From: Peptococcaceae bacterium BRH_c8a
Lineage (GTDB): Bacteria > Bacillota > Desulfotomaculia > Desulfotomaculales > Desulfallaceae
DNA length: 64,000 bases
Assembly: GCA_000961575.1 (NCBI GenBank)
Contig: LADP01000018.1
Location: forward strand, 62,001 to 126,000
Reading direction: 5' to 3'
Part shown: positions 1,778 through 57,357 of the stretch, piece by piece
Layout: each line of letters opens with the position of its first letter
Position numbering within the stretch: the first letter of the stretch is position 1
Program-made: the position numbers and the translations under genes
Notes under the pieces: generated by a model
Databases searched by the model: none
What the model was told of the DNA's origin: nothing
What the model saw: the letters and a program-made list of their open reading frames with translations, nothing else

Positions 1778-3715
1778 ATGGAGGAAACCATGAAGGATAT
1801 AAAAATAGGTGTAGTTTCCACTTATCCGGAAATGTCCAAGTTGATTAACAAAATGGCTAGTGAAATGGAAATTAATTTGGAGGTAAGGGAAGGGATATTG
1901 GAGGAAGGCGTGTCTATTGCTTACCAATTTGAACACGAAGGTGTGGACGTAATCATCAGTCGGGGCGTGACGGGCCGGAAAATAAAAAAGGCTATTTCAC
2001 TGCCTGTTGTTTTAATAGAAATAACTTCATTCGATATATTACAAGCACTTTACATAGCCAAAGGCATGGGGCGCAAGATTGCTTTTTTGGGCCACATGAC
2101 CCATGATTTCAGTTCCGAATTTAAAACCATAACCAACATATTAGACATCCCAGTGGATTGCTATCCATATACCAATCTTTTTGAAATGGATGAACAAATG
2201 GGTAAAATTTTAAGATCAGATATTGATGTTGTGGTTAGTACGGGCTTATGCGTTTATGAGATGGCTAAGAGATCTGGTGTAAATGCCGTCCTGGTACAAT
2301 CCGGTAATGACGCCATTCACGGTTCTATTAACCAGGCCTTGGAATTGGTGCAGGGAATTCGCCGCAATCACGAACGTTCTAAGCGATATCAGGCTGTGTT
2401 GGCATCCACCAATGACGGCATACTGATTATGGATGAGCATAAGCGTATTGTTTTTATGAATAAAGCTGCCGAAAGTCTTTTGGAAATGGATGCCCGTACC
2501 ATAGTAGGGCGGCATATGGAAAATATAAGTGAATCCGTTATTTTAGGCTTTTTGTGTAATGGAGGCGCTAACAGCACAGAGGTTTTTAAAGAAATAGGAC
2601 GCAAACAGTTCTGGATAAACAGTATGCCTATCATTTTGGAGAATAAGCAAAAAGGTACTGTTACTATGTTTCAGGGTGCGGATCGAATTCAGGTATTGGA
2701 ACAAAACTTAAGGCGCCAACTGTTTAAAAAGGGACTTTTTGCCAAGCATACTTTTGAAGATCTTATTGGTAGCAGCGACCAACTTTTGGACACCATAGCC
2801 AGGGCTAAAAAGTATGCCGCTGCAAACGCCACTGTTCTGATATGCGGGGAGACTGGTACCGGAAAGGAATTGTTTGCCCAAAGTATTCATAATGACAGCG
2901 CCAGGCGGGATGGACCTTTTGTGGCCATAAACTGTGCTGCTCTGCCTGAGAATCTGTTGGAAAGCGAATTGTTTGGTTACGAGGAAGGAGCTTTTACAGG
3001 GGCAAAAAAAGGCGGCAAAACCGGTTTATTTGAGATGGCGCACGGGGGTACAATTTTACTTGATGAAATTGGTGAAATGCCCTTGCCTGTGCAGGCCCGC
3101 CTGCTGCGTATTTTGCAAGAACGGGAAATTATGCGATTGGGTAGTGACAGAGTGATTCCGGTGGATGTTAGAATAATTTCCGCCACCAACTATGAACTAA
3201 GCTTAGCCGTTAAAGAGGGTAACTTTCGCAGCGACCTGTTCCATCGTTTAGAGGTGCTAAACCTGGATATACCTCCTCTACGTAAGCGTAAAGAAGATGT
3301 AGAACAACTTGCGGAATTCCTAATTAAAAAGTTCAGTTTCGAGGAGAAAAAACATGTATCGTCTTTAACTGAATCGGCTATGGAAAAATTAAAAAAATAC
3401 GATTGGCCGGGCAATGTCAGGGAACTGCAGAATGTAATGCAAAAGTATGTCCTTTTAATTGAGGAAAATCAAAAGGCTGAAGAATTAATTGCTAGACTGA
3501 TCAATGAGAAAATTAAGAAGTCTTATGCAGTACCATCTGGAGATGAAAACAGCATCACGATTAAAATAGGTAAAATGGATGATATGGAGCTTGAGATTAT
3601 AGAATACTTGCTTTCCACCGGCGCCAGTATTAAAGAAATTTCTCAGATTACTGGTACCAGTCGCACCACCTTATGGAGAAAGCTAAAGGACCTGGATGAA
3701 GCCATGTTTCGATAA
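1778..3715 (+). CDS. Sigma-54-dependent transcriptional activator with PrpR-N sensory domain, PAS domain, AAA+ domain and Fis-type HTH
   Basis: N-terminal IKIGVVSTYPEM...VDVIISRGVTGRKIK is PrpR_N-like; Walker A GETGTGKE; GAFTGA motif; C-terminal HTH SIKEISQITGTSRTTLWRKLK. Confidence 0.92.
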   Translation: MEETMKDIKIGVVSTYPEMSKLINKMASEMEINLEVREGILEEGVSIAYQFEHEGVDVIISRGVTGRKIKKAISLPVVLIEITSFDILQALYIAKGMGRKIAFLGHMTHDFSSEFKTITNILDIPVDCYPYTNLFEMDEQMGKILRSDIDVVVSTGLCVYEMAKRSGVNAVLVQSGNDAIHGSINQALELVQGIRRNHERSKRYQAVLASTNDGILIMDEHKRIVFMNKAAESLLEMDARTIVGRHMENISESVILGFLCNGGANSTEVFKEIGRKQFWINSMPIILENKQKGTVTMFQGADRIQVLEQNLRRQLFKKGLFAKHTFEDLIGSSDQLLDTIARAKKYAAANATVLICGETGTGKELFAQSIHNDSARRDGPFVAINCAALPENLLESELFGYEEGAFTGAKKGGKTGLFEMAHGGTILLDEIGEMPLPVQARLLRILQEREIMRLGSDRVIPVDVRIISATNYELSLAVKEGNFRSDLFHRLEVLNLDIPPLRKRKEDVEQLAEFLIKKFSFEEKKHVSSLTESAMEKLKKYDWPGNVRELQNVMQKYVLLIEENQKAEELIARLINEKIKKSYAVPSGDENSITIKIGKMDDMELEIIEYLLSTGASIKEISQITGTSRTTLWRKLKDLDEAMFR

Positions 3716-3852: not shown

Positions 3853-3961
3853 TCTTGTTATTGGGCAAGTTAGTTAATTTGGGACGGGAGGTGTGCGTGG
3901 AAGGGGTTCTTGGGGCGGTTAAGTAATCTAATGTAAGTTGACCAAAGAGGAGGAGCAGAAA

Positions 3962-5062
3962 GTGCATAAAAAATCAATATTAGTTCTTATTGCATTACTG
4001 ATAGTTACCCTGCTAACTGCAGGATGTGGTTCTAAGAATGAAGGCGGCGAAGGTGATAAAGCGGCTGATAGTAAGACTTATACTCTTAGTATGAATTGTC
4101 CTTATCCTCCGCCCGTACATGAATGGGAATCAAAGCACATAGCCCATGAAAAATTTGCCGAGCGCGTTAAAGAAGAAACAAACGGTAGAGTAAATATTAA
4201 AGTTTATTATAATGGCCAGTTGTCTTCTACCAATGAAGCATTAGATTCTTTAAAGCGGGGCGTTACTGATATGGAAAGCTCAACTTCCTATTGGGGTGGC
4301 GTTGTTCCCGAATCCGATGTTATCTGGCTGCCATTCTGGAGTAAAGGTCACGAGCATGCCATGCACGTTATGCGTGAGACCAAGGTCGGTGAAATGTTTG
4401 AAGAAGCTTATCAGAAACAGGGATTAAAAGTGTTGTTTTATTGGCCGGTCAGCATTGAAGGGTTAATATCTACTGAACCAATTAAAACATTTGATGACAT
4501 TAAAGGTACCAAACTTCGCATGGGCTCCAGCATGTGGCCCACCTGGTTTAAATCAATGGGAGTAACACCTATAAATGTTGCGCCCTCTGAGCAATATGAA
4601 GCTATGATGAGAGGCACAATGGATGGAACTATTTATGTTTTATATAGCATTGATACTTACAAGTTTTATGAAGTAGCTAAGAACATAACGCTACCCGGCT
4701 TTATTGACCCATTCCTCTGCTATGTTTTAGTAAGCGAAGAATCATGGAATGAATTGCCGGAAGATCTGCAGCAAACTATTGAAGGAATCGCCAAGGAAAT
4801 AGAAGCGGAAGCCGTTATAGGTTCCCAGAAACTCACCGATTCGATATTGGAGATTTCCGATGAAAACGGTGTAACAGTAAACAAATTAAACAAAGAGGAA
4901 TTTGAGAAATTTAGAGCATCAGCCATGCCTCTGTGGGATGAATTCGCTGCTAGAAACGAAAATACCGCGGAAATGGTTGAAATATTAAAAGAAGATCTTA
5001 AGCAATGGGAAGCAAACAATCCCGAATCAAAAGAATGGGAAGAAAGATGGTTGGCCGAGTAG
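3962..5062 (+). CDS. dctP: TRAP transporter substrate-binding lipoprotein (DctP family)
   Basis: Signal peptide with lipobox LTAGC; DctP-type fold features (GRVNIKVYYNGQL..., KLRMGSS). GTG at 3962 with GAGGAGGAG upstream is preferred over the TTG at 3938. Confidence 0.88.
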   Translation: MHKKSILVLIALLIVTLLTAGCGSKNEGGEGDKAADSKTYTLSMNCPYPPPVHEWESKHIAHEKFAERVKEETNGRVNIKVYYNGQLSSTNEALDSLKRGVTDMESSTSYWGGVVPESDVIWLPFWSKGHEHAMHVMRETKVGEMFEEAYQKQGLKVLFYWPVSIEGLISTEPIKTFDDIKGTKLRMGSSMWPTWFKSMGVTPINVAPSEQYEAMMRGTMDGTIYVLYSIDTYKFYEVAKNITLPGFIDPFLCYVLVSEESWNELPEDLQQTIEGIAKEIEAEAVIGSQKLTDSILEISDENGVTVNKLNKEEFEKFRASAMPLWDEFAARNENTAEMVEILKEDLKQWEANNPESKEWEERWLAE

Positions 5063-5073
5063 CAATTGTAAGT

Positions 5074-5115
5074 CTTTATGAAATGACAGGGTTTAGGCCC
5101 TGTCATTTCATAAAG
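5074..5115 (+). other. Perfect 18-bp stem-loop between dctP and dctQ
   Basis: CTTTATGAAATGACAGGG-TTTAGG-CCCTGTCATTTCATAAAG, no poly-T after it. Confidence 0.85.
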
Positions 5116-5131
5116 AAACGGGGGGAAATAA

Positions 5132-5650
5132 ATGAATTCTTTAGAAAAATTAATAGCAAATATAAATGAATATATGATGTGGATATGCGGCTCAATAATT
5201 ATGTTTATGGGTTTGTTAATTACCGTCGATATAATACTGCGTTCCACGATAAACTATTCTATTCAATGGGCTTTTTCTCTTAATGGCTATTTAAGCGCTA
5301 CAGTTGCCTTACTGGCGGGTGGCTATGCTTTACTGCACAAACACCACGTTAAAGTGGATATTTTCTACATGCGGTTTCCCTCTAGAGTAAAAGGTATTGT
5401 TGACATTGGTACATCCTCATTATTATTTCTTCTTTGTGGAGTTTTTGTCTGGACTGGTGGCAATTTATGTTTTGAATCCTTTGTTTCAGGGTACACCACG
5501 GGAGGTGTCCTTGACATGCCGTTATATATTCCCCAAATGCTAGTACCATTGGGAGGGGCATTGCTGGGATTACAGGCATTCGTTGATTTAACCTATAATA
5601 TAAAACTGGCCCTAGGCATAAAAACACTTGTCGAGGAGGGCTCATCATAA
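5132..5650 (+). CDS. dctQ: TRAP transporter small permease (DctQ)
   Basis: 172 aa, 4 TM segments, located between DctP and DctM. Confidence 0.88.
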   Translation: MNSLEKLIANINEYMMWICGSIIMFMGLLITVDIILRSTINYSIQWAFSLNGYLSATVALLAGGYALLHKHHVKVDIFYMRFPSRVKGIVDIGTSSLLFLLCGVFVWTGGNLCFESFVSGYTTGGVLDMPLYIPQMLVPLGGALLGLQAFVDLTYNIKLALGIKTLVEEGSS

Positions 5651-6960
5651 TGGAACCTTCATTATTGGCACTAATTCTGATCGGCGCATTATTAATAATT
5701 ATGGCTTTAGGCTTACCAGTTGCGTTTACCCTGGGTGGTCTTTCACTAGCCATTGGTTTTTTTGTCTGGGGAGGTACTGGTGGTTTTTATGCGGTGGCCC
5801 TGGGGGCACTGGGTAAGGCTACTAGCTTTACCCTGACTGCTATTCCTCTTTTTCTGATGATGGCGGCTGTTTTGCGCTTTAGCGGGATGGCCGATGATAT
5901 GTATGAAATGATTAATCGTTGGATGGGCAAAATTAAAGGCGGACTGGCTCTGGGCACAGTTATTATTTCCGCTATCTTTGCCGCCATGGTAGGCATCAGC
6001 ACGGTGGCCACTGCTACCCTGGGTTTGACGGCTATGCCGGCCATGCTTAAAAGGGGTTATAATAAAAAGCTGGTTGCCGGCGCCATCTGTGCTGGCGGTG
6101 CCTTGGGCATCATCATACCGCCCAGCGTAATCATGATTATCTATGCCGCCGAAGCCGAAGTATCGGCGGGCCAGATGTTTTTTGGCGGTGTTGTTCCCGG
6201 CCTTATTATGTGTTCATTATTTTTAATTTATATCGCCATACTGTGCATAAAAAACCCCGCCTATGGGCCACCTGTGGAAGAAAACTTTACTTTACCGCAA
6301 AAAATGGAGTCGCTTAAAGCAGTGACGTTGCCTATGTTTATTATTTTATTGGTTTTGGGTGTAATTTACACCGGCATTGCCACACCAACTGAAGCTGCTG
6401 CAATTGGTCTTGTGGGTTCTTTAATGTGCGCTGCAATAAAACGCAAGTTGGACCAGGGAAATATAAAGAATATGATGGCCATGGGTGTTGGGGTTAACGC
6501 TATGGTATTTTGGATTATTCTTGGTGCGGTTGCTTATTCTCGACTTGTTACCATGACCGGTGTTGGTGAATGGTTCAGCGAGCTGGTCACGGGGATGGAT
6601 GTAAATAGATGGGTAATATTATTGGGTATGCAGGCTATATTTTTTATAATGGGTATGTTTTTGGACCCTGCCGGCATTATATTAATAACCGGGCCCTTCT
6701 TCCTGCCTGTGGTTAGTGCACTTGGCTTTGACCCGCTTTGGTATGGCGTATTGTTTGTCATCAACATGTGCATGGCTTACATTACCCCTCCATTTGGATT
6801 CAACTTGTTTGTTATAAGAGCGGTTGCTCCCACTGGTATATCAATAGGCGAAGTTTATACAGCCATTTGGCCGTTTGTTTTTATTATGGCCTTGACCCTG
6901 TTAATAGTTGCTTTAGTTCCGCAAACTGTTACCTGGTTACCAAGTTTACTTATTAAATAG
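5650..6960 (+). CDS. dctM: TRAP transporter large permease (DctM)
   Basis: 436 aa polytopic; GIIIPPSVIMIIYA and TPTEAAAIG motifs; ATG overlaps the dctQ stop. Confidence 0.92.
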   Translation: MEPSLLALILIGALLIIMALGLPVAFTLGGLSLAIGFFVWGGTGGFYAVALGALGKATSFTLTAIPLFLMMAAVLRFSGMADDMYEMINRWMGKIKGGLALGTVIISAIFAAMVGISTVATATLGLTAMPAMLKRGYNKKLVAGAICAGGALGIIIPPSVIMIIYAAEAEVSAGQMFFGGVVPGLIMCSLFLIYIAILCIKNPAYGPPVEENFTLPQKMESLKAVTLPMFIILLVLGVIYTGIATPTEAAAIGLVGSLMCAAIKRKLDQGNIKNMMAMGVGVNAMVFWIILGAVAYSRLVTMTGVGEWFSELVTGMDVNRWVILLGMQAIFFIMGMFLDPAGIILITGPFFLPVVSALGFDPLWYGVLFVINMCMAYITPPFGFNLFVIRAVAPTGISIGEVYTAIWPFVFIMALTLLIVALVPQTVTWLPSLLIK

Positions 6961-6984: not shown

Positions 6985-7905
6985 TTGTCAGTCAATAAAG
7001 TAACAACTCTAGCAGAAGCTGTACAGGGGCTTGTTAATGACCATGATACAGTTGCCCTGGGGGGTATACTATCCCGCGAACCGGTGGCTTGTAGTTATGA
7101 ACTGATCAGGCAAAATAAAAAAGAGCTGACCCTTATTGTCGATAGTCATGACGAATCAGTAGAGCTGCTTATAGGCGCCGGCCTGGTAAAAAAGGTAGAG
7201 TCAGCTTATGTATGGGTAGGCGTAATAGGAAGCGGGCTTAACTTTAGAAGGGCGGTTGAAAAGGGACTTCCCAAACATATAGAAGTAGAAGACTATACCA
7301 ACCTTGCTATTGGCATGCGCTTTTTAGCCGGAGCGTTGGGCGTTCCCTTTCTCCCGGTTATGTCAATGTCCGGATCTGACATTCCTAAGTATAATGACAA
7401 AATTATAAGCATGGCAGATCCTTACAAAGGACAACCAGTCAACCTGGTGCCGGCTGCTGAACCCGACGTTGCCTTTATCCATGTTCAACGGGCGGATAAA
7501 ATGGGCAATGCCCAAATTTGGGGGATGCTTGCTAACGATGTAAATATTGCCCGGGCGGCTAAAAAATTGATCATTACCTGCGAAGAAATTATTCCTACGT
7601 CTGAAATCAGAAAGATACCCAATATGACCCAAATACCGCATTATTGCGTAGATGCAGTGGTAGAACTTCCTTTTGGAGCACATCCATTAGGCGTAGCCGG
7701 GTATTATTGGCTGGATACGCCATTCAGGCGAGATTGGCTTAAAGCATCGAAGACACAAGAAGGCTTTGACGCCTGGGTAGAGGAATGGGTTTTAAGCTGG
7801 GATAAATTTGAGGAATACCTGCAGAAATTAGGCTCAGACAGGCTGGCCAAGCTGCGGAAATTGGAAAGAGATAATTATCAAATCCCAAGAATAGAGAATT
7901 ACTAG
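6985..7905 (+). CDS. CoA-transferase subunit A (glutaconate CoA-transferase-like, GctA family)
   Basis: 306 aa; paired with subunit B; CoA-transferase family I features. Confidence 0.85.
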   Translation: MSVNKVTTLAEAVQGLVNDHDTVALGGILSREPVACSYELIRQNKKELTLIVDSHDESVELLIGAGLVKKVESAYVWVGVIGSGLNFRRAVEKGLPKHIEVEDYTNLAIGMRFLAGALGVPFLPVMSMSGSDIPKYNDKIISMADPYKGQPVNLVPAAEPDVAFIHVQRADKMGNAQIWGMLANDVNIARAAKKLIITCEEIIPTSEIRKIPNMTQIPHYCVDAVVELPFGAHPLGVAGYYWLDTPFRRDWLKASKTQEGFDAWVEEWVLSWDKFEEYLQKLGSDRLAKLRKLERDNYQIPRIENY

Positions 7906-7916
7906 GGGGTATTGCA

Positions 7917-8768
7917 ATGAATTATACAACACAAGAATTTATGGTTTCAGCTTGCTCCCGCCTAATTAAGGACAATGAATGTGTTTTTATAGGTGTAGGG
8001 ATTCCTTTATTGGCCGGAGTAGTAGCCAGCAAGATTCATGCGCCAAATTCCGTATTAATTTACGAGGCTGGTGGAATTGGGGCTATAAGCCGCAGGTTGC
8101 CATGGAGTATTTCAGATAACGCTACCACTGATAATGCCCTTGTGGCAACTGAACTATGGAGGGTTCTAGGTGATGTTCAGCGTGGCTACATTGATGTGGC
8201 TGTCATTGGTGGTGCTCAGATAGATAAATTTGGCAACCTTAACACCACAGCAATAATAGGTGCAGGAAAGACCTATCAAAGGCCAACTACACGTTTACCC
8301 GGCTCAGGCGGTGCTAACGATCTGGCTTCTTCAGCTAAGAGGGTGCTTATTGTAATGAGGCTGGAAAAAAGAAAGTTTGTCGAAAAGCTTGATTACATAA
8401 CCAGCCCGGGTTATATAGCGGGCCCTGGAGATAGAGAAAAAGCTGGTTTAAGGGGTGGGGGACCGGAAACGGTAATTACTAATAAATGCATTTTTAGATT
8501 TGACCCTTTAACCAAGGAAATGTATCTAGATGAATTGTTCCCCGGAGTGACTGTGGATGAGGTTAAAGCAGCTGTGGAGTGGGATTTAAAAGTAGGTTCC
8601 AATTTAAAACAAGTTGAGCCCCCTACCGAAGGTGAAGTTGAAATCATGCATCGAATCGATCCGCTTGGGGTGGTTTTAGGAAGCAAAAGCAAACAAGAAA
8701 ACCAATCTTTTGAGGAGTATTATAAAATTATGAAAGAGTGCTATGAATCCATGGCGCTATTAATTTAA
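7917..8768 (+). CDS. CoA-transferase subunit B (GctB family)
   Basis: 283 aa; IYEAGGIGA with the expected catalytic Glu; RLPGSGGANDLAS motif. Confidence 0.86.
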   Translation: MNYTTQEFMVSACSRLIKDNECVFIGVGIPLLAGVVASKIHAPNSVLIYEAGGIGAISRRLPWSISDNATTDNALVATELWRVLGDVQRGYIDVAVIGGAQIDKFGNLNTTAIIGAGKTYQRPTTRLPGSGGANDLASSAKRVLIVMRLEKRKFVEKLDYITSPGYIAGPGDREKAGLRGGGPETVITNKCIFRFDPLTKEMYLDELFPGVTVDEVKAAVEWDLKVGSNLKQVEPPTEGEVEIMHRIDPLGVVLGSKSKQENQSFEEYYKIMKECYESMALLI

Positions 8769-9090: not shown

Positions 9091-10932
9091 ATGGCCGAAT
9101 TTGCATACGATGTTCGGGACATCAAGTTCATACTAAATGAATGGCTGGACATGGAAGAAGTTTTTAATCTGGACAAATTTAAAGAGAATTATGAGCTGGA
9201 TGACGTAGACTTTATACTAAATGAAGTTTATAAGATCTCCAAGGAAGTTGTATTTCCCATTAATAAAGAAGGGGACGAAATTGGCGTCAAGTTTGCGGAC
9301 GGTCAGGTTAAAGTTCCGCCGTCGTATATAGAGGCCTATAAATTTTTGCAGGAAAACGGCTGGGGCTCTGCTAATGAATCGCTGGGCTCCGAAACCATTA
9401 TGCCGTTAACTTTATACAGGGCGTACAACGAAATAATTATGGCAGCCTGCCCGGCACTGTCATCCTATATCAAGTTGACCACCGGTGCGGCCAACCTGAT
9501 CTACAGGTTTGGCCAGGACAAAGACCGGGAACTGTTCATTGAAAATATGCTGAACGGTCGATGGACTGGCACCATGTGCCTAACAGAGCCGAATGCCGGT
9601 TCTGACGTGGGAGATTCCAGCACTAGAGCTTATCCTACCGATGACCCCAGAATATATAAAATTAAGGGCACCAAAATGTTTATTACCGGTGGCGAGGTTG
9701 ATTTAAGCGATAATATCATTCACATGGTGCTGGCTCGCCCAGAAGGAGGTGCCCCCGGTTCTAAAGGACTGGGCCTGTACATTGTGCCCAAAATTTGGGT
9801 TAATGATGACGGCAGCATGGGTGAACCCAACGATGTTGTATGCACCGGCGTTGAGCATAAGATGGGGCTTAAGGCGTCTGCCACAGCTATGTTAAACTTT
9901 GGTGAAAATGATAACTGTCTCGGGATACTGGTGGGCAGCCCACCGGACGACGCAGGGGCTTCCAAAGGTTTGTCCATGATGTTTCACATGATGAATGAAT
10001 CACGCATCGGCACGGGCCACAATGCCCTGGCCCAAATGGCTGCGGCTTATAATTTCGCGGCGCGTTTTGCCACCGAACGGATTCAGGGTCGCCCCTTTAC
10101 CAACCCCAAAGAAGGACGGGTGCCACTGATTAAACACGAAGATGTAAAAAGAATGCTATTAGAAATTAAAGCCCAGGTCGAGGCCATCCGGGCCATGGTA
10201 TTTAAGGGTTTTTACTACCTGGATATTGCCGAACACGGCAGCGACAAGGAAAAGTCCACCAGGTGCCAGGGACTGGCCGAGATACTCACCCCACTCATTA
10301 AGACTTACTCCAGTGAAACCGCCTGGCAGATGATCGGTCAGGCCATTCAAGTATACGGCGGGGTGGGTTACACTGAAGAATACCCCGTCTCCCAGTATGC
10401 CCGTGATGTGAAGATACTTTCCATTTGGGAGGGAACTTCATTTATTCACGCTATGGACTTGGTGGGCCGAAAAATGCGCATGAATGGCGGGCAGTCGTTC
10501 GCTAACTGGATGGATGACCGGAAAGACTTTATCGAGCAAAATAAAGATACTGCAGGGTTTGCCGTGGAATTTGGCAACCTGGAAAAAGCATACTGCTGTA
10601 TGACCGAAGTTAAAGATCTGTACGCTTCGTATTATGCTAACAAGACCGAAAAGGGAGAACTAATACCACTTTACGCACCGCAAGTGCTTACCTGTTGTGC
10701 CCAGTTGTTTGCCGGAGAAGCGATTATGGATCAGGCTTTGCTAGCCAATAGCAAGCTGGCTACCTTGGATGCGGGCCACCCCGATTATAACTACTATAAA
10801 GGTAAAATTGCGGCTGCCCGGTATTTTAGCAATAATATTCTGCCCCATGTGGTTATGCTTACCGAGCTAATTAAAAATGCTGACAAGTCGGCTGTTGAGT
10901 GCCCGGAAGAGGCGTTGGTCATTAATATCTAG
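9091..10932 (+). CDS. Acyl-CoA dehydrogenase, long (about 600 aa, DmdC-like) type
   Basis: 613 aa; CLTEPNAGSDVG, GGVGYTEEYPVSQYARDVKILSIWEGT; extended C-terminal domain. Confidence 0.9.
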   Translation: MAEFAYDVRDIKFILNEWLDMEEVFNLDKFKENYELDDVDFILNEVYKISKEVVFPINKEGDEIGVKFADGQVKVPPSYIEAYKFLQENGWGSANESLGSETIMPLTLYRAYNEIIMAACPALSSYIKLTTGAANLIYRFGQDKDRELFIENMLNGRWTGTMCLTEPNAGSDVGDSSTRAYPTDDPRIYKIKGTKMFITGGEVDLSDNIIHMVLARPEGGAPGSKGLGLYIVPKIWVNDDGSMGEPNDVVCTGVEHKMGLKASATAMLNFGENDNCLGILVGSPPDDAGASKGLSMMFHMMNESRIGTGHNALAQMAAAYNFAARFATERIQGRPFTNPKEGRVPLIKHEDVKRMLLEIKAQVEAIRAMVFKGFYYLDIAEHGSDKEKSTRCQGLAEILTPLIKTYSSETAWQMIGQAIQVYGGVGYTEEYPVSQYARDVKILSIWEGTSFIHAMDLVGRKMRMNGGQSFANWMDDRKDFIEQNKDTAGFAVEFGNLEKAYCCMTEVKDLYASYYANKTEKGELIPLYAPQVLTCCAQLFAGEAIMDQALLANSKLATLDAGHPDYNYYKGKIAAARYFSNNILPHVVMLTELIKNADKSAVECPEEALVINI

Positions 10933-11043: not shown

Positions 11044-12387
11044 ATGAGATACCAAGAGGAGTATAGGAGCAAATTGGTTACCGCTGATGAAGCGGTAAAA
11101 GCGGTAAAATCAGGCGACTGGGTGGCCTACAGCCATTTTGTGACCACCCCTCGGGTTTTGGATGAGGCTCTGGCTAGGCGGAAAGATGAACTAAGTGATG
11201 TTAAGTTAAGGGGCGTTTGTTCACTTTACCCGGTTCATGTTGCCCTGGCCGACCCGGAACAAAAGCATTTTATTTATAATAGTGGTTTTTTTAGCGGCGT
11301 AGACCGGAAACTACAGGACGATGGTATGTCTTTCCATATCCCCGGTCTGTACGCCGAGTCACCGGTGAATATCCGGTTGGGTAATTCTCCAGCAATCAAC
11401 GTGGCCATGCTCGTAACCACCCCCATGGATGAGAACGGTTTCTTCAATTTCAGCTTATCCAACTCTTACGAGCGGGCGCTGTGTGAAAAAGCTCAAACCG
11501 TAATCGTGGAAGTGAACCGGAATGCGCCTCGCTGCCTGGGTGGGGATCAGGAGTGTGTACACATTTCCGAAGTGGACTATATCGTTGAGGGTAGAAACGA
11601 TCCGCTGTTTGAGATACCCGTGCACCCGCCCACCGAGGTGGATAAAAAAATTGCTGCCCTAATAGTGGAAGAAATTGAAGATGGTGCCTGTCTGCAGTTG
11701 GGTATCGGCGGTATGCCCAACACCATTGGCCAAATGCTGGCCGATTCTGATCTAAAGGATCTGGGTGTACACAGTGAAATGCTGTGCGGCTCTTTTGTGG
11801 ATCTATATGAAAAAGGGATCATCACCGGGGCCAGAAAAACGATAGACCGCTTTAAAATGGTTTTTAGCTTTGCCTTGGGAGACGCCAGGTTATACGAATT
11901 TGTAAATAATAACCCTGCCTGCGCCATTTACCCGGTGGACTACACCAACTCGGCGGAGAACATTGCCAAAAATGACAAGCAAATTTCCATTAACAACGCC
12001 ATCGAGATAGATTTATACGGTCAGGTTAGTTCAGAATCAGTGGGTTCCCGGCAGATTTCCGGAACCGGCGGCCAGTTTGATTTTACTTATGGCGCTTTTC
12101 GTTCCAAGGGTGGCAAGGCATTCATCTGCTTGAGCTCGTCCAGGAAGGTTAGGGATAAACAGATCTCCAGGATTGTGCCCACCATTACCCCCGGCAGCAC
12201 TGTAACCGTGCCCAGGTCAGTGGTGCATTACGTAGCTACCGAATACGGTAAGGCTAACTTGAAAGGCAAGCCAACTTGGCAACGGGCGGAGATGCTGATT
12301 GAGATCGCCCATCCCGACTACCGGGATGACCTGATTAGGGAAGCAGAAAAGATGAAGATATGGACCAGAACTAATAAGCGGTTATGA
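11044..12387 (+). CDS. Acetyl-CoA hydrolase/transferase family protein (4-hydroxybutyrate/butyrate:acetate CoA-transferase-like)
   Basis: 447 aa; [28 protein letters not shown]. Confidence 0.88.
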
Positions 12388-12428
12388 TTTGAAAATAAAT
12401 TAATTTTTGAAAAAGAGGTGCAATGATA

Positions 12429-13298
12429 ATGGCAAGTTTTGCAGTCAAAAATATTTGTATTATCGGCGCGGGGAATATGGGACACCAGATAGCCCTCTCC
12501 GCAGCTTTAGCGGGCTACAAAGTGGTCTGTACTGATATCAATCAAGAGATTTTAAAGCAGGCTGAAAATTTTGTTGATACCTATCTACCCCAACGGGTAA
12601 CCAAGGGTAAGCTCACCGAGGACGAATCCAAAGCAGCCCGGGCTAGGGTATCTTTTACCAGCGATTTAAAAGAAGCGGCCCAGGACGCCGATCTAGTGAT
12701 TGAGGCCGTGATAGAAAAACTGGAGCTAAAACGTAAGATTTTTGCGGATTTGGACAAAATTTGTCCCCCGCATGCCATATTAGCCACCAACAGCTCCTAC
12801 ATAGTCAGCTCCAAAATCGCTGACGTAACCGGTAGACCGGACAAAGTTTGCAATATGCACTTCTTTAATCCGGCTCTGGTGATGAAGCTGGTGGAAGTGG
12901 TCAAAGGGCCGCACGTATCCGATGACACGGTGGAGATAGTGATGGAAGTATGCAAAAAGATGGGGAAAGTACCTGTTATGCTGCAAAAAGAAATATACGG
13001 CTTTTTGGTTAACCGGATTGTTTCCGCCATTAAAAACGAAGCACTGTATATCTATGATATGGGGGTGGCTACTCCCGAAGATATTGACACTGCAGTGGTA
13101 CATGCCCTGGGACACCCGATGGGCCCGTTCAGATTGCTTGATTTAACCGGTGTCGACCTCACTTACTATATTAGTACGGAACGCTACCAGGAAACTGGCG
13201 ATCCCAAGTACAAGCCCTCGCCTATTATTGTAGAAAAATTTATCAAGAAAGAATGGGGCCGCAAAACCGGTAAAGGATTCTATGACTATTGCAAGTAA
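12429..13298 (+). CDS. 3-hydroxyacyl-CoA (3-hydroxybutyryl-CoA) dehydrogenase
   Basis: Rossmann motif ICIIGAGNMGHQIA; NMHFFNPALVMKLVEVV; start at 12423, 12426 or 12429. Confidence 0.92.
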   Translation: MASFAVKNICIIGAGNMGHQIALSAALAGYKVVCTDINQEILKQAENFVDTYLPQRVTKGKLTEDESKAARARVSFTSDLKEAAQDADLVIEAVIEKLELKRKIFADLDKICPPHAILATNSSYIVSSKIADVTGRPDKVCNMHFFNPALVMKLVEVVKGPHVSDDTVEIVMEVCKKMGKVPVMLQKEIYGFLVNRIVSAIKNEALYIYDMGVATPEDIDTAVVHALGHPMGPFRLLDLTGVDLTYYISTERYQETGDPKYKPSPIIVEKFIKKEWGRKTGKGFYDYCK

Positions 13299-13358: not shown

Positions 13359-14543
13359 ATGAGAGAAGTTTACTTGGTTGAAGGGGTGCGCACGCCCATA
13401 GCCAAGGCGGGCAAAAGATCTTGGTTTGCCAATGTCAGGGCGGACGACCTGGCTGCCGCGGTGATAAATGAAGTGTTGAACCGGGCCGACGTTACCGGGT
13501 CCAAGAGAGAACAAGTGGATGATGTTATGCTGGGCGGCACTTATTTAATGCAGGATATGGGTTCCAATATCGGTCGCTATGCTACTATCATGGCCGGCAT
13601 GCCGTTTAGTGTCCCCGGGTGTACGGTGGATCGCCTCTGTGGATCCGGTCTGCAAACCATTGCCTTTGCTGTTTCTTCCATTGCTATGGGCTGGTCGGAT
13701 TTAATTATTGCCGGCGGGGTTCAACAAATGACCCATGTGCCGATGGCCTCGGGCTTTAGCCCCAACCCCCGGCTAGCGGAGTTTACCGACCCCGATATGA
13801 TACGGATGGGTTATACCGCGGAAATGGTAGCCAGACGGTACAATATCAGCCGGGAAAAACAAGATCAGATGGCTGCAGAGAGCCATGCCAAGGCCCATAA
13901 AACTACCGAAGCAGGCCTTTTTAAGGATGAAATATTACCCATTGAAGCAGATGTGCCCACCGAGGACGGGGGCACTCAAAAAATGCTGGTTACCCGGGAT
14001 CAGGGTATCAGACCGGGCACTACTATGGAAACGCTGGCCAAGCTAAAGCCGGTATTTATGGATGATGAACTGGCCACCGTCACTGCTGGTAATTCCAGCC
14101 AGACCAATGATGCTTCCGCTGCTGTTCTGGTGGCCAGTAAGGAAAAAATACAAGAGCTGGGTTTAAAGCCTAAAATGAAGCTGGTGGCTTATGCTGTGAT
14201 TGGCGTAGACCCCGTCGTCATGGGTATTGGCCCTGCTTTAGCTATCCCCAAAGCCCTAAAGCAAGCCGGCATGACTATTGATCAAATAGATTTGTGGGAA
14301 ATTAACGAGGCCTTTGCCTCCCAGGCTGTTTATTGCACTGAAGAGTTAGGCATCAGAAACCATCCGCTGCTTAATCCGCGCGGCAGCGGCATAGCTCTGG
14401 GGCACCCGCTGGGCTGCACCGGGGCGCGCATTGCCACCACCCTGATGCACGAAATGCCTTATTACAACGCCAAATTCGCCGTAGAAAGTATGTGTATCGG
14501 TCACGGTCAGGGCGCTGCAGCGATCTGGGAATGGGTTGGCTAA
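13359..14543 (+). CDS. Acetyl-CoA acetyltransferase (thiolase)
   Basis: 394 aa; DRLCGSGLQ, NEAFASQ, GSGIALGHPLGCTGAR, CIGHGQGAA. Confidence 0.93.
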   Translation: MREVYLVEGVRTPIAKAGKRSWFANVRADDLAAAVINEVLNRADVTGSKREQVDDVMLGGTYLMQDMGSNIGRYATIMAGMPFSVPGCTVDRLCGSGLQTIAFAVSSIAMGWSDLIIAGGVQQMTHVPMASGFSPNPRLAEFTDPDMIRMGYTAEMVARRYNISREKQDQMAAESHAKAHKTTEAGLFKDEILPIEADVPTEDGGTQKMLVTRDQGIRPGTTMETLAKLKPVFMDDELATVTAGNSSQTNDASAAVLVASKEKIQELGLKPKMKLVAYAVIGVDPVVMGIGPALAIPKALKQAGMTIDQIDLWEINEAFASQAVYCTEELGIRNHPLLNPRGSGIALGHPLGCTGARIATTLMHEMPYYNAKFAVESMCIGHGQGAAAIWEWVG

Positions 14544-14587: not shown

Positions 14588-15367
14588 ATGGATTACCAAA
14601 ATATACTGCTCGAAAAAGACGGTCATATTGCCGTGATTACTTTAAACCGCCCGGAAGTGCGCAATGCCCTGGATCCCCAAACATGGGCTGAGATTCGCGG
14701 CGCCGCGCGGGAATGTCGTTTCGAAAAAGATGTGCGCGTGGTAATTATCACCGGGGCGGGAGGAAAAGCATTTGCCTCCGGGGCAGATATCCGCTCTCTT
14801 AGGGAACGCGAGGCACTGGAAGTACTAAAAAGCGAAGCCCAGGAATCATTGAATGACCTGGAAAACCTGGATAAGCCGGTTATTGCCGCTATTGACGGGT
14901 TTGCCCTGGGCGGCGGATGTGAGCTGGCTCTGGCCTGCGATATCAGGATTGCCACCAGTCGCTCCAAGTTAGGCCAGCCCGAAGTTAACCTGGGCATTAT
15001 CCCGGGGGCGGGCGGCACCCAGAGACTACAGAGAGTAGTTGGCGTTGGCAAAGCTAAAGAACTAATCTTTACCGGCGATATCATCAGCGCCCAGGAAGCT
15101 AAAGAGATTGGTCTGGTGAATAAGGTAGTAGAGCAGCCCGAAGATTTGCTTTCGGTGGCCAAGGAAATGGCCCAAAAAATAATTGCCAAGGGGCCGATGG
15201 CTGTTAGCCTGGCCAAAGTGGCTATCAATGTGGGTGCCAACACGGATATTAACTCGGGGTTGTTATTTGAGAAGTTCGCTCAGGTAATCGCCTTTTCCAC
15301 CGCAGACCGCATTGAAGGTACAACTGCATTCTTAGAAAAACGCAAGCCGAATTTTAAAGCTAAATAA
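14588..15367 (+). CDS. Enoyl-CoA hydratase/crotonase
   Basis: ATG at 14588 with RBS AGAGGAAGGG (the track start 14492 is too far upstream); both crotonase Glu contexts GGGCELA and GQPEVNLGIIPGAGGTQRL. Confidence 0.92.
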   Translation: MDYQNILLEKDGHIAVITLNRPEVRNALDPQTWAEIRGAARECRFEKDVRVVIITGAGGKAFASGADIRSLREREALEVLKSEAQESLNDLENLDKPVIAAIDGFALGGGCELALACDIRIATSRSKLGQPEVNLGIIPGAGGTQRLQRVVGVGKAKELIFTGDIISAQEAKEIGLVNKVVEQPEDLLSVAKEMAQKIIAKGPMAVSLAKVAINVGANTDINSGLLFEKFAQVIAFSTADRIEGTTAFLEKRKPNFKAK

Positions 15368-15502: not shown

Positions 15503-16657
15503 ATGGACTTTAGTCTGTCTGATGAAATGAGAGACATGAAACGGACGATTCGCGATTTCGTGGATAACGAAGTGGAACCCTGCGCCATGCAAATAGAAGA
15601 GGAAGACCATATTCCCCAGCATTTGATTGACCAGGCCAAGGAAATGGGCCTTTTCGGCATGAGCATCCCGGAACAGTATGGCGGTCTGGGCCTGAACATG
15701 GTGGAAAAGTGCCTGCTGCTAGAAGAGCTCGGCCGGGCCAACATGAGTTTCACCACCTATATCGGGGCCCACACGGGCATCGGCACCACCGGTATCGTAG
15801 AACTGGCTAACGAAGAATTAAAACAAAAATACCTGCCCGGCCTGGCCAGCGGTGAAAAACTGGGCGCTTTTGCCCTGACCGAACCCGATTCCGGTTCGGA
15901 TGCCACCAATATGAAAACCTCGGCAGTTTTAAAGGGCGATAAGTGGATCTTAAACGGCATGAAACATTTTATCACCAACGCACCAGAAGCAGAAGTATTT
16001 ACAGTTATCGCCGTAACGGACAAGGAAAAAGGGGCCCGGGGCGGATTTACCGCTTTCGTGGTGGAAAAAGATTCTCCCGGCTTCTCCATCGGTACCATTG
16101 AAAGAAAGATGGGCCTGCGCGGCTCGCACACTTCAGAGGTTATCTTTGAGGATTGTGAAGTGCCCAAGGAAAATGTGCTGGGGATAGAAGGCAAAGGTTA
16201 TTCCAGTGCCTTGCGGATTTTAAGCAAGGGTCGGGTGGCGCTGGGGGCCCGCTGTGTGGGCGCTTGTGACAAGCTGGTGGAGTTATCTGCTAAATACGCT
16301 CAGCAGCGGGTGCAGTTTGGTCAGCCCATTGCCAGTTTCCAGGCTATCCAGTGGATGCTGGCTGAAATGGCTACCGATACCGAGGCGGCTAGGGCGCTGA
16401 CCTACCGGGTGGCCTGGATGGTAGACCAGGGCCTGCCGGTGTTGAAAGAAGGCCCCATGGTTAAACTGTTTGCCTCTGAAGCACTGGGCCGGGTGGTTGA
16501 TAAGGCGGTTCAGGTGCACGGCGGCATGGGATATATGAAGGAATTCCCGGTGGAACGTTTTTACCGGGATGCCAGATTGACTCGCATCTACGAGGGAACC
16601 AATGAAATACAGCGGATGGTTATAGCCGCCCGGCTGCTTAAAGAATTACAAATATAA
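15503..16657 (+). CDS. Short-chain acyl-CoA dehydrogenase
   Basis: 384 aa; ALTEPDSGSDA; VHGGMGYMKEFPVERFYRDARLTRIYEGTNEIQ with catalytic Glu. Confidence 0.94.
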   Translation: MDFSLSDEMRDMKRTIRDFVDNEVEPCAMQIEEEDHIPQHLIDQAKEMGLFGMSIPEQYGGLGLNMVEKCLLLEELGRANMSFTTYIGAHTGIGTTGIVELANEELKQKYLPGLASGEKLGAFALTEPDSGSDATNMKTSAVLKGDKWILNGMKHFITNAPEAEVFTVIAVTDKEKGARGGFTAFVVEKDSPGFSIGTIERKMGLRGSHTSEVIFEDCEVPKENVLGIEGKGYSSALRILSKGRVALGARCVGACDKLVELSAKYAQQRVQFGQPIASFQAIQWMLAEMATDTEAARALTYRVAWMVDQGLPVLKEGPMVKLFASEALGRVVDKAVQVHGGMGYMKEFPVERFYRDARLTRIYEGTNEIQRMVIAARLLKELQI

Positions 16658-16685: not shown

Positions 16686-17864
16686 ATGGAAAGCGTAGCC
16701 ATTATTGGAGCCGGGCAGACCAAATACGGTGATTTTCCCGGCCTTGGTGTTAAGGAACTGTTTGCCGAAGCTTACCTGGAAATGCTGCAGAGTGTAGACC
16801 GGGGGCTGGAACAGCAGCGGATTGGGGCCGCCTATATCGGCAGCCTTAGTGCGGGCAGTGGATTTCAACTGGGTCAGTTGGCCCCACTGCTTATGGGCCA
16901 TGTGGGCCTGCCCCACGTGAATGCAGCTCGCATTGAAAATGCTTGTGCCTCGGGTGGGTATGCCTTGTATAGTGCGGCCTGCGCGGTGGCGTCCGGCAAG
17001 TTTGACCTGGTGCTGGCCGCGGGCGTGGAGAAGATGAGGGACGTTTCTTCAAGCAAGGGCAGATACTGGCTGGGGGTTTCCGGGGATACCGAATATGAGC
17101 GCCTGGCCGGTTCCACCTTTGCCGGCATCTATGCCCTGATGGCCGCCAGGTACATGCACGAATACGGGCTGAAAAGGGAGCACCTTTCCATGGTGGCGGT
17201 AAAGAATCACCGTCACGCGGTGTCCAACCCTAAAGCCCAGTTCCGTAAAGAAATTACCATCGAGCAAGCCCTAAAGGGTGTTCCGGTGGCCCACCCCTTT
17301 AACGTGTGGGACTGCAGCCCCACCACCGACGGCGCGGCGGTGGTACTGCTCTGCAACGCCAAGATTGCTAAAGAGTTTACCGATAAACCCGTTTATTTAA
17401 AAGGGTTCGGGGCGGCCAGTGATTATCTGGCCATCCACGACCGGGACAGCATGACCAGGCTGCTGGCTACCCGTAAGGCTGCTGACGAAGCGTATAAACA
17501 GGCTGGTGTCGGGCCTAAGGATATTGATTTTGCCGAGGTGCACGATTGTTTTACCATTGCCGAAATTCTGGCCTACGGTGACCTGGGCTTTGCCGAGGAA
17601 GGACGGGCTCAGTACCTGTTGGAGGAAGGTTTTACCCAATTGGACGGCAAACTGCCGGTTAATGCCAGCGGGGGATTAAAGGCCAAGGGGCACCCCATTG
17701 GGGCCACCGGGTGCGGTATGGCCTGCGAAGTTTTTAAACAACTGCGTGACGAGGCCAAAGAACCCAGCCGGCAGATTAAGAACGCCAGGTACGCTTTATC
17801 CCATAATGTAGGTGGTTCCGGCGGGACAGCCGCGGTATTCATCTACCAGAGGGGGGACGCCTGA
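16686..17864 (+). CDS. SCP-x-type thiolase
   Basis: 392 aa; IENACASGGYAL with nucleophilic Cys, SGGLKAKGHPIGATG, SHNVGGSGGTAAV. Confidence 0.9.
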   Translation: MESVAIIGAGQTKYGDFPGLGVKELFAEAYLEMLQSVDRGLEQQRIGAAYIGSLSAGSGFQLGQLAPLLMGHVGLPHVNAARIENACASGGYALYSAACAVASGKFDLVLAAGVEKMRDVSSSKGRYWLGVSGDTEYERLAGSTFAGIYALMAARYMHEYGLKREHLSMVAVKNHRHAVSNPKAQFRKEITIEQALKGVPVAHPFNVWDCSPTTDGAAVVLLCNAKIAKEFTDKPVYLKGFGAASDYLAIHDRDSMTRLLATRKAADEAYKQAGVGPKDIDFAEVHDCFTIAEILAYGDLGFAEEGRAQYLLEEGFTQLDGKLPVNASGGLKAKGHPIGATGCGMACEVFKQLRDEAKEPSRQIKNARYALSHNVGGSGGTAAVFIYQRGDA

Positions 17865-18868
17865 TGACCAAGAGTATCATATCCGGTGGAGTTTACTTGC
17901 CCACCTTACGGATCAAGCGCGATGAGTACCTGAGCGCCTTGGGCAGTTGTTCTGCCGCCATGCGGGAGAAAACAGTCATGGACATAGATGAAGATGTGAT
18001 TACTATGGCGGTGGCAGCAGCCAGGGACGCCCTGGCTGACCTGGATGTTTCCCGCGTGGGTGTGCTGACCCTGGCCTCCACTAATTTTCCCTATCAGGAA
18101 AAGGCGCTGGCCGGTACCCTGGTAGAGGCGCTGGGGCTGGATAAGCATGTGCTGACCTCTCAGCATGGCAATTCCACCATAGCAGGCACCGAAGCACTGC
18201 TGGCGGCGCTGGGCTTGCTGGAACAAACGGAGCAGCAATACGCCCTGGTGGTTGTATCCGATGCCCCGACGTCCGGGCCTGATGTGGACATGGAACATGG
18301 CTTCGGTGCTGCTGCCTGCGCCTTTGTGCTGGCCAAAGACGAACCGGGTCTGGCATTTGAAGGGGTTTATGCCCAATCCGGGGAAACCATGGGCCTGCGC
18401 TACCGTCTGCCGGGGGAAACCGATATCAGGGATATCGGAGTAAAAGCCTTTGCCACCCTTGACTACAATGAAATGGTCAAGGCCGCAGTAACGGGGTTGG
18501 TAAGCAAGCTTAACCGGAACTTGGCGGATTACCGCCATATAGTTATGCACCAGGCAGATGCAAAAACCGCTGCGGCTTTGGCCAAAAAGATGGGTTGCAG
18601 CGATGTGCAAACCAAAGAAGGATCTGTATTTGCTGATACGGGAGACATCGGGGCCTGTTCATCTTTGCTGGGTTTATGCCGGGTACTGGAATCCGCTGCT
18701 TCCGGGGACTGCCTGTTAATATCTTCCTACGGTTCGGGCTCGGGAAGTCAAGCCCTGAGTTTTCGTCTGCAGGCACCCCTGAAGAACAGCGGTTCGTTCC
18801 AAGCCAGGCTTGAAGATAAAAAATATATCGGGTATATCCAATATCTAAAACAGAAAAGAAGTATCTGA
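17864..18868 (+). CDS. HMG-CoA synthase/KAS-III-like protein lacking the canonical nucleophilic Cys
   Basis: 334 aa; ATG overlaps the thiolase stop; GNSTIAGTEALLAAL aligns to the (F)ACKAGTxxx segment of archaeal HMG-CoA synthases with Cys replaced by Thr; MHQADAK retained. Confidence 0.8.
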   Translation: MTKSIISGGVYLPTLRIKRDEYLSALGSCSAAMREKTVMDIDEDVITMAVAAARDALADLDVSRVGVLTLASTNFPYQEKALAGTLVEALGLDKHVLTSQHGNSTIAGTEALLAALGLLEQTEQQYALVVVSDAPTSGPDVDMEHGFGAAACAFVLAKDEPGLAFEGVYAQSGETMGLRYRLPGETDIRDIGVKAFATLDYNEMVKAAVTGLVSKLNRNLADYRHIVMHQADAKTAAALAKKMGCSDVQTKEGSVFADTGDIGACSSLLGLCRVLESAASGDCLLISSYGSGSGSQALSFRLQAPLKNSGSFQARLEDKKYIGYIQYLKQKRSI

Positions 18869-18877
18869 GGTGATTAA

Positions 18878-19294
18878 ATGGGCGCTCACATATCTATTCC
18901 CATGTACCAGAGGGCGGTTCCCCAGCGTTACAGGCTGGTGGGGCAGCGCTGCGGGGCCTGCGGCAAGATTAACTTTCCTCCCAAGGCAGTGTGCAAATAT
19001 TGTTACCAGGGTACATCCTTCGAAGATGTCCAGCTAAGCGGCAGGGGCACGGTATATTCATATACCGTAATTGCCGGAGGCGGCGCCCCGCCCGAATTTG
19101 CGGCAGAAGCCCGGTGTAAGGGCAGTTACCCCGTAATAATTGTTGAGCTGGCAGAAGGACCCCGGGTAATTGCCCAGATGGTTAATCCCCCCGAAGAGGG
19201 AATTGCCATAGGCATGCCGGTAAAAGCGGTATTTAGAAAGATATATGAAGAAGAAGGGGTAATCAGGTACGGGTTTAAATTTAGCCCGGCCTGA
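18878..19294 (+). CDS. Zn-ribbon/OB-fold DUF35 protein
   Basis: 138 aa; CGACGKINFPPKAVCKYC rubredoxin-like zinc ribbon followed by OB-fold (GTVYSYTVI). Confidence 0.92.
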   Translation: MGAHISIPMYQRAVPQRYRLVGQRCGACGKINFPPKAVCKYCYQGTSFEDVQLSGRGTVYSYTVIAGGGAPPEFAAEARCKGSYPVIIVELAEGPRVIAQMVNPPEEGIAIGMPVKAVFRKIYEEEGVIRYGFKFSPA

Positions 19295-19345: not shown

Positions 19346-20116
19346 ATGAAATACGTTGTGCTACTGAAACAGGTATATGATACCGAAACAAAAATTACCC
19401 TGGATGCCAATGGCACGATTAGCAATTCCGGCATTACTTTAATTATGAATCCCTACGATGAATATGCCGTGGAAGAAGCTCTGCGCCTTAAAGAAAAGGG
19501 CGAAGGCGAAGTAACAGTGGTCAGTGCCGGAGGCCAGCAGGTGCAGGACGCTTTAAGACAGGCGCTGGCGATGGGGGCCGATAAAGCGGTGCTGGTGGAT
19601 TCGGAGGGTGCAGACCTGGACGAATATGCTACAGCTATAATATTGGCCAAAGCAATTGAGAATATTGGTTTCGATGTTATCTTAGGCGGGTTCCGGGCCA
19701 TTGATGACGGTTCCGCCCAGGTGGCTGGCCGGGTGGCGGAAATATTAAAAGTCCCGGTGGTCAACGTGATCACCAAATTAGAGGTTGAAGGCTCCCAAGC
19801 AACAGCTACCCGTGAGATAGAAGGCGGCAGTGAAGTGGTGGAAGTATCCCTGCCTGCTGTTTTTACTGCTCAAAAAGGACTGAACGAGCCTCGATATCCA
19901 TCTATGAAAGGGATTATGAAGGCTAAGAAAAAGCCGATGGATAAAAAGACGCTGGCCGACCTGGGTCTAGATAACGACCAGATTGCCGCCAGGGTCAAGC
20001 CGATATCCTTCTCGCTGCCGGAAGCGCGCAAGGCCGGCAGGGTTATTCCGGGCGAACCCGGACAAGCAGCGGCTGAACTTGCCAAACTGCTTCGTGAAGA
20101 AGCCAAGGTAATATAA
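19346..20116 (+). CDS. etfB: Electron transfer flavoprotein beta subunit
   Basis: MKYVVLLKQVYDTETKITL; ATG at 19346 with RBS AAGGTGGG. Confidence 0.92.
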   Translation: MKYVVLLKQVYDTETKITLDANGTISNSGITLIMNPYDEYAVEEALRLKEKGEGEVTVVSAGGQQVQDALRQALAMGADKAVLVDSEGADLDEYATAIILAKAIENIGFDVILGGFRAIDDGSAQVAGRVAEILKVPVVNVITKLEVEGSQATATREIEGGSEVVEVSLPAVFTAQKGLNEPRYPSMKGIMKAKKKPMDKKTLADLGLDNDQIAARVKPISFSLPEARKAGRVIPGEPGQAAAELAKLLREEAKVI

Positions 20117-20416: not shown

Positions 20417-21391
20417 GTGGCCAAAGGAATTTGGGTTTTCGCCGAACAGCGTGAAGGGCAAATTAAGAAAGTGACATATGAACTTTTAAGCGAGGGTCGC
20501 CAAATGGCCGACCAGTTGGGTGAAGAATTATGTGCCGTATTGGTGGGTAAAGATGTGGCCGAAATGGCCGGCTCGCTTGGCGAATACGGTGCAGATAAAG
20601 TTTTGGTGGTGGAAAATGAGGCTCTAGAAAACTATACTACCGACGGTTATACTAACGCTATTGCCGAGTTGATTCGCCAGAACGAACCAAGTGCCTTCCT
20701 GCTGGGCTGCACGGTAACAGGGCGTGACCTGGCGGCTCAACTGGCTCAACGTTTGGAAACCGGTTTAATGACGGATTGCACGGGCATGGAAATTGCTGAC
20801 GGTCAACTGGTGTTCACCCGCCCGATATATGCCGGTAAAGCCACTGTCAGGGCTGCCTGTCCTGAAGCGCGCCCGGTTATGGCTACCATTCGCCCTAATA
20901 CGTTTGTTGCTGTGGCTAATGCCAAAACCGCAGAAGTGGTAAAAGCCGCCGTCGATCCAGGCAATATCCGTCAGGTAATCAAGGACATTGTGCGCCAGAT
21001 TTCCGAGCGCCCTGAACTAACCGAAGCCGATATAGTAATTAGCGGCGGTCGGGGCATTAAAAGCCCGGAAAACTTTAAAGTTCTGGAAGAACTGGCTGAC
21101 GTGCTTGGCGGGGCTGTGGGCGCATCCCGGGCAGCGGTTGATGCCGGTTGGATTTCCCACAGTTATCAGGTTGGTCAAACCGGCAAGACCGTATCCCCCG
21201 TGCTGTATATAGCCTGCGGTATATCAGGTGCCATTCAACACCTGGCCGGAATGAGTTCTGCAAAATGCATTGTGGCCATTAACAAAGATGAAGAGGCCAA
21301 CATATTTAATGTTGCGGACTACGGAATAGTGGGCGATATATTTGATATAGTACCTGTATTAACTGAGGAATTAAAAAAGATAACTGCCTAA
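20417..21391 (+). CDS. etfA: Electron transfer flavoprotein alpha subunit
   Basis: GTG start with AAAGGAGG RBS; C-terminal FAD domain ([51 protein letters not shown]). Confidence 0.93.
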
Positions 21392-50458: not shown

Positions 50459-51283
50459 ATGATGAAAGTCATTGTACTGATTAAACAGGTACCCGGAACA
50501 GCAAATACCCGCATGAACCCTGAAACAGGCGTAATGATCCGTGATGCGGGCGAAACCATTTTGAACCCGCTGGATGAACATGCGGTTACCGAAGCCGTTG
50601 CCATTAAGAAAAAACATCCGGGTACAGAAGTTATAGCCCTGACTATGGGCCCGCCTTCCGCGCAGAAGGTGCTGCGGGAGGCCTGCGCCAGGGGTGCTGA
50701 TAAGGGAATTTTGCTTTCGCACAAAGCTTTTGGCGGGTCGGATACCCTGGCTACTTCGCGCGTCCTGGCAGCGGCCATACAAAAAATCGGTGCTATTAAC
50801 CTGGTTTTGGCCGGGGAGAAAGCCACCGACGGGGAAACCGGGCAAACCGGTCCCATGACAGCAGCGCTGCTCGACATCCCGGTAATTACCTTTGTACACC
50901 GGTTAGAGGTTAATGAGATGCATATTATTGCCCGTCGCATGGTGGAGGAAGGGATTGAGGAAGTTAAGGCAAGTCTGCCGGCACTGGTGACGGTGGTCAA
51001 GGACATCAACAACCCTCCCCTGCCCACGATAAAAGGCTATATTTTAGCCAAGAAACAAACCTTTCCTGTGTGGGGGCCTGCAGACCTGGCCATTGAAGAA
51101 GGTACACTGGGTCTAAAAGGATCCCCAACCCGGGTGGTCAAAATATTCACCCCCAAACTGTCTCGGCAGACTACCTTTTACACCGCTGCTAATGAAGAAC
51201 AGATGCCGGGTGCAGCGGAAGCGGTTTTAAAGGTGCTCCTAAACCGCAGTCTAATAGAAAAAGGTGATCGCTATGGAGCCTAA
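50459..51283 (+). CDS. etfB: Electron transfer flavoprotein beta subunit (second copy)
   Basis: MMKVIVLIKQVPGTANTRMNPETG; GEKATDGETGQTGP. Confidence 0.93.
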   Translation: MMKVIVLIKQVPGTANTRMNPETGVMIRDAGETILNPLDEHAVTEAVAIKKKHPGTEVIALTMGPPSAQKVLREACARGADKGILLSHKAFGGSDTLATSRVLAAAIQKIGAINLVLAGEKATDGETGQTGPMTAALLDIPVITFVHRLEVNEMHIIARRMVEEGIEEVKASLPALVTVVKDINNPPLPTIKGYILAKKQTFPVWGPADLAIEEGTLGLKGSPTRVVKIFTPKLSRQTTFYTAANEEQMPGAAEAVLKVLLNRSLIEKGDRYGA

Positions 51284-56151: not shown

Positions 56152-56166
56152 GAACTACACCTCTTC

Positions 56167-57177: not shown

Positions 57178-57357
57178 TATGTGCCCCCTTAATTCTGTGT
57201 GTTCTGTGGTAAACCCATCACTCAACCTCTGTATTCACAGACGATTGGTCATCTGATAAATACATGCTCATTACACTTTATTGATAGTATCATATATAGC
57301 CTTGTTTCCGCACTACCCAAGAATTACCGGTAATAATTAAACGCTTTATTCACTAAC

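Follow-up and report, generated by a model that had tools for sequence, protein, structure and literature searches.

In the 64,000-nucleotide window analysed here (contig LADP01000018.1 of the sulfate-reducer-like Peptococcaceae bacterium BRH_c8a, positions 62,001 to 126,000), the gene of a thiolase is followed by that of a protein resembling HMG-CoA synthase and by that of a DUF35 protein, which raises the question of whether the three act together and, if so, what a synthase deprived of its catalytic residues contributes. The SCP2/SCP-x-type thiolase, the putative catalytic subunit (T; 16686-17864, 392 aa), the HMG-CoA-synthase/KAS III-like protein lacking the catalytic Cys, Glu and Asn, proposed here to be a scaffold (H; 17864-18868, 334 aa), and the DUF35 zinc-ribbon/OB-fold protein, proposed to bridge the other two (Z; 18878-19294, 138 aa), are all encoded on the forward strand. 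The stop codon of T (TGA, 17862-17864) and the start codon of H (ATG, 17864-17866) have one base in common (TGATG), and a gap of 9 bp separates H from Z. Pfam and NCBIfam models assign T to the SCP2/SCP-x-type thiolases and Z to the DUF35 zinc-ribbon/OB-fold proteins, and they place H near the archaeal HMG-CoA synthases, at scores under the cut-offs of both models (TIGR00748, 137.8 bits against a cut-off of 353.35; NF003274, 225.8 bits against 244). Each of the three adjacent genes is homologous to a subunit of a solved three-part complex, the archaeal thiolase/HMGS/DUF35 complex (6ESQ), which is the best solved relative for all three (306.6 bits for T, to 6esq_A; 111.3 bits for H; 97.1 bits for Z, to 6esq_E). 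The thiolase motifs of T are intact, comprising the nucleophilic Cys86 (NACASG), HDCF and the GHP histidine (GHPIGATG), and they are kept with small changes in all close orthologues. Both zinc CxxC pairs of Z (CxxC...CxxC) are likewise intact.

The neighbouring genes, all on the forward strand, constitute a butyrate-type beta-oxidation operon. Upstream of the triplet lie genes for a 613-aa acyl-CoA dehydrogenase (9091-10932), a CoA-transferase near butyryl-CoA:acetate CoA-transferase (11044-12387; 583 bits, cut-off 674.8), a 3-hydroxybutyryl-CoA dehydrogenase-like protein (12423-13298), a conventional acetyl-CoA C-acyltransferase, which is the second thiolase of the operon (13359-14543; TIGR01930, 424.5 bits, over the cut-off), a short-chain enoyl-CoA hydratase (crotonase)-like protein (14588-15367) and a 384-aa short-chain acyl-CoA dehydrogenase-like protein (15503-16657). 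Downstream follow the beta-type (19346-20116) and alpha (20417-21391) subunits of an electron transfer flavoprotein (ETF). This gene order is largely kept across the family, and scans of the operon for promoters and terminators gave counts near or modestly above those in shuffled sequence. Besides T, the operon of the window encodes a conventional thiolase, as it does in most close relatives, while several relatives have no close copy of it within the stretch fetched around the triplet. That T is the only thiolase in such relatives was considered and rejected, as conventional thiolases are present in all 17 genomes searched. The window also holds two pairs of CoA-transferase subunit genes. The first (6985-8768; PF01144) adjoins a TRAP transporter (3938-6960) and a PrpR-type sigma-54 regulator (1778-3715); the second (55342-57225), and a second ETF-like pair followed by a FAD-linked-oxidase-like ORF (50459-53346), were read from ORF sequences only.

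The catalytic residues of a synthase are largely gone from H, which carries QHGNSTIAGTEAL in the region of the catalytic Cys. In an alignment of 50 sequences, T105 of H aligns with the catalytic Cys of the 6ESQ HMG-CoA synthase. None of the 20 members of the H family has Cys in this column (13 Thr, 3 Ala, 2 Ile, 1 Ser and 1 Gln), against six of six archaeal synthases, in all of which the Glu and the Asn are kept as well; the difference is not fortuitous. The Glu column holds T73 in the window protein and Thr, Ala or Ser across the family, while the Asn column holds D261, an Asp in 20/20 members. Of the catalytic set Cys/Glu/His/Asn (here T105, T73, H229 and D261), only the His is present, and it is kept in 15 of the 20 members and replaced in the other five. 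The alignment contains no Cys that is invariant at any position among the 20 family members. The best kept, and the only near-constant one, is C29 (window 17948-17950), absent from the live synthases, which is found in 18 members and is Phe in the other two. A relocated nucleophile was rejected on these grounds. The free variation at the Cys column means that no substitute nucleophile stands there, and because invariant Cys is absent elsewhere too, the synthase machinery of H has been lost and not relocated. The Thr in place of the nucleophilic Cys, the Cys retained by T and the tight spacing of the genes with a stop/start overlap had all been pointed out in the preliminary description and hold, the losses at the Glu and Asn columns going beyond it. 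Its further statement that the segment is free of Cys stands for the window protein, in which the 10 residues on either side of T105 include no Cys, but not for the whole family, since four orthologues have a Cys, inconsistently, a few residues upstream of this position (TCQHGNS).

H is maintained, because its reading frame is open in every relative and dN (0.12-0.29) is far below dS (about 0.7 or more) among the closer relatives; that it is a decaying pseudogene was discarded for the same reasons. Its dN is mostly three to four times that of T in the same relatives (0.12 vs 0.03, 0.19 vs 0.05 and 0.29 vs 0.08), with Z between the two and dS saturated for many pairs. This fast evolution fits a subunit freed from catalysis and held by structure. 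The AlphaFold model of H (pLDDT 84.6, pTM 0.86) reaches a TM-score of 0.87 by query length against the archaeal complex, and its ten best fold matches are only HMGS-like chains of 6et9/6esq, PhlA of the PhlABC acyltransferase and MucA of MucABC. The C-terminal K..Y..Y..Y tail, common to live and dead HMGS versions, is a candidate interface.

The distribution of the genes bears on whether their products belong together. The strongest matches to T and H (at least 72% identity and E <= 1e-191 for T, at least 41% and E <= 1e-76 for H) fall together in one set of 13 among 61 related genomes, as neighbours in every case, and no genome has one without the other; these 13 genomes are related and so do not represent 13 independent events, and presence is patchy across six families. 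Wherever an orthologous locus was examined, the genes run T-H-Z; such loci come from Desulfoscipio, Desulfotruncus, Desulfofundulus, Desulfallas, Desulfovirgula, Carboxydothermus and several metagenome-assembled genomes (MAGs). More distant relatives, Firmicutes, Actinomycetota and haloarchaea among them, have H and Z as a single fused protein beside the thiolase, which is a good though indirect sign of contact between H and Z. These fusions, together with the co-occurrence of T, argue that the three proteins form one unit. A paralogue of the fused type is found in the organism's own genome, where a second cluster on the reverse strand (L034:4445-10164; G000:C22) encodes a Cys-less HMGS-DUF35 protein (470 aa) and a thiolase together with an acyl-CoA dehydrogenase, an SDR and two MaoC-like proteins, and adjoins an acyl-CoA ligase gene, the roles of these neighbours being read from sequence. 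In Haloferax mediterranei, a thiolase and a long protein with a full-length match to H are encoded next to 3-hydroxyacyl-CoA dehydrogenase, enoyl-CoA hydratase and PaaK, which is again a beta-oxidation setting. Haloarchaeal plasmids also have a thiolase gene followed by one for a long protein that carries no annotation beyond 'zinc ribbon domain-containing protein' and likewise has a full-length match to H (e.g. L091:5841-8431), and such pairs of a thiolase and a long H-like protein occur in many plasmid records of haloarchaea and in some of Sphingobium. A search of plasmid DNA gave partial thiolase matches only.

The explanation that we favour, and regard as probable, is that T, H and Z constitute one CoA-dependent beta-ketothiolase with a non-catalytic HMGS-like scaffold subunit, comparable to PhlA. 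The three proteins would assemble physically as subunits of a single enzyme, in which T would perform the chemistry through Cys86, the HDCF motif and the GHP histidine, H would be a catalytically dead subunit kept as a scaffold and with no chemistry of its own, and Z would bridge T and H as its counterparts do in the archaeal complex and in PhlABC. With regard to direction and substrate, we infer that T catalyses the thiolysis step of the butyrate-type pathway, with acetoacetyl-CoA as the likely substrate. It could instead act on another 3-oxoacyl-CoA, because conventional thiolases are available both in the operon and in all the genomes searched. The archaeal complex differs in that its HMGS is catalytic, retains Cys, Glu, His and Asn and supplies the mevalonate pathway with HMG-CoA, whereas H lacks three of these residues and lies in a catabolic operon. 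The benzoylsuccinyl-CoA thiolase BbsAB (7PXP), which belongs to anaerobic beta-oxidation, resembles T and Z in combining a thiolase with a zinc/OB-fold subunit, and is not known to contain an HMGS-like subunit. The window proteins score far under the cut-offs of the BbsB and BbsA equivalog models (199.5 of 750 and 40.1 of 250 bits, respectively).

Besides scaffolding, H could have a further function, as suggested by residues that are foreign to the synthases. S104, E174, G177, R179, D190 and G263 are invariant in all 20 members and absent from the live synthases, and together with D261 they stay identical while overall identity in the family falls to about 40%. One possibility is that H has gained a new chemistry or a specific binding capacity, these seven residues forming a rebuilt pocket that holds or acts on an acyl-CoA, for example as a docking site from which the substrate is handed to T. 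Their strict identity and their difference from all live synthases would agree with such a pocket, as would the archaeal complex, in which the CoA site is shared by subunits (PMC12329534, PMC6392133). However, H has no invariant Cys, the replacement of His229 in five members leaves no conserved Ser-His pair, H has changed more quickly than T and Z, and D261 and G263 are also found in PhlA, which has no part in acyl transfer. We therefore consider a rebuilt pocket of this kind unlikely.

It is more improbable still that the triplet is an acyltransferase of the PhlABC/MucABC type, in which a PhlC-like T would transfer acyl groups onto a carbon acceptor independently of CoA. The three-part architecture is the same, and PhlABC (5M3K, 5MG5, 9SKH) likewise combines thiolase-like and DUF35 subunits with a Cys-less HMGS-like one, a feature that H shares. 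PhlA has Gly115 for the Cys and Cys83 for the Glu, only residues of PhlC take part in the acyl transfer, and co-expression of all three proteins is required for a functional enzyme (PMC6392133); an inactive member of the thiolase superfamily was noted in phlABC in 2010 (PMC2954200). MucABC of Streptococcus macacae (9VBO, 9VBT), identified as a multi-component acyltransferase by its PDB title, has the three-part architecture too, and its subunit A, only 18-19% identical in the fold comparison, has Glu in the column of the Cys. On the other hand, the scores of T and Z against the CoA-dependent archaeal subunits far exceed those against PhlABC (T, 306 bits versus 109-124 bits to PhlC; Z, 97 versus 26-28 bits to PhlB). 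No polyketide or secondary-metabolite genes are found near the triplet, which has beta-oxidation genes on both sides, and while PhlABC transfers to phenols independently of CoA, the setting in the window is catabolic and presumably CoA-dependent. Nor does H group with PhlA in the best tree, in which PhlA joins the live archaeal HMGS (98/97), apart from the window's H family. This grouping would mean that the Cys was lost twice; the tree favours two losses, although a single Cys-less clade of PhlA and the H family is not rejected by the AU test (p = 0.199, on an alignment without the long branches 9VBO, L076 and L058). A genome of the same phylum encodes, at a contig end, a PhlA-like protein (QFAGKSGT; L088:4394-5509, G333) that groups with PhlA in the tree. 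The likeness to the archaeal complex and PhlABC drawn in the preliminary description is borne out by the sequences and by how H is predicted to fold, and H as a structural partner of the thiolase, without catalysis of its own, is also the best reading here. Its candidate novel acyltransferase, in contrast, is not upheld, since the closeness of T and Z to the archaeal CoA-dependent complex, the full thiolase motifs and the operon make an ordinary beta-ketothiolase step more likely.

That T, H and Z have separate functions, with H as a working HMG-CoA synthase or KAS III that uses another nucleophile, is very improbable, for although HMGS models match H below their cut-offs and annotation by homology would name it HMG-CoA synthase, Cys, Glu and Asn are absent in all members, no Cys is better kept than C29, and the H-Z fusions and the co-occurrence of T speak for one unit.

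A Cys-less HMGS-like partner as such is already known in PhlA. New, as far as we have found, are the catabolic setting, the wide spread, the conserved residues of the inactive H and a mirror-image case from two archaeal MAGs, and a literature search found neither a published description of the bacterial triplet nor work on butyrate in the host organisms. In the mirror case (Bathyarchaeota and Ferroglobus MAGs; L050:10969-12180 and L054:2452-3609), the HMGS keeps Cys, Glu, His and Asn while the adjacent thiolase lacks the nucleophilic Cys (EAASASG, EAADASG) and has an altered HDCF motif, in two MAGs only, where assembly errors are possible.

Naming the H family HMG-CoA synthase by homology would wrongly suggest a mevalonate pathway, against which the residue losses argue. 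If our reading is right, one and the same architecture exists with both enzymes alive (archaea), with the synthase dead (the bacteria studied here and PhlABC) and with the thiolase apparently dead (the two archaeal MAGs), and it would offer a testable case of complexes that keep a dead subunit. A bolder and doubtful idea is that H is a dead synthase rebuilt to a non-catalytic role, in which a pocket of S104, E174, G177, R179, D190 and G263 would bind or dock an acyl-CoA and control the substrate choice or direction of the beta-oxidation thiolase; if true, a large class of regulatory pseudo-synthases would exist in bacteria and haloarchaea. For the sulfate reducers and their relatives, the favoured reading suggests that a thiolase of beta-oxidation needs two partners for its activity, which is relevant to its expression.
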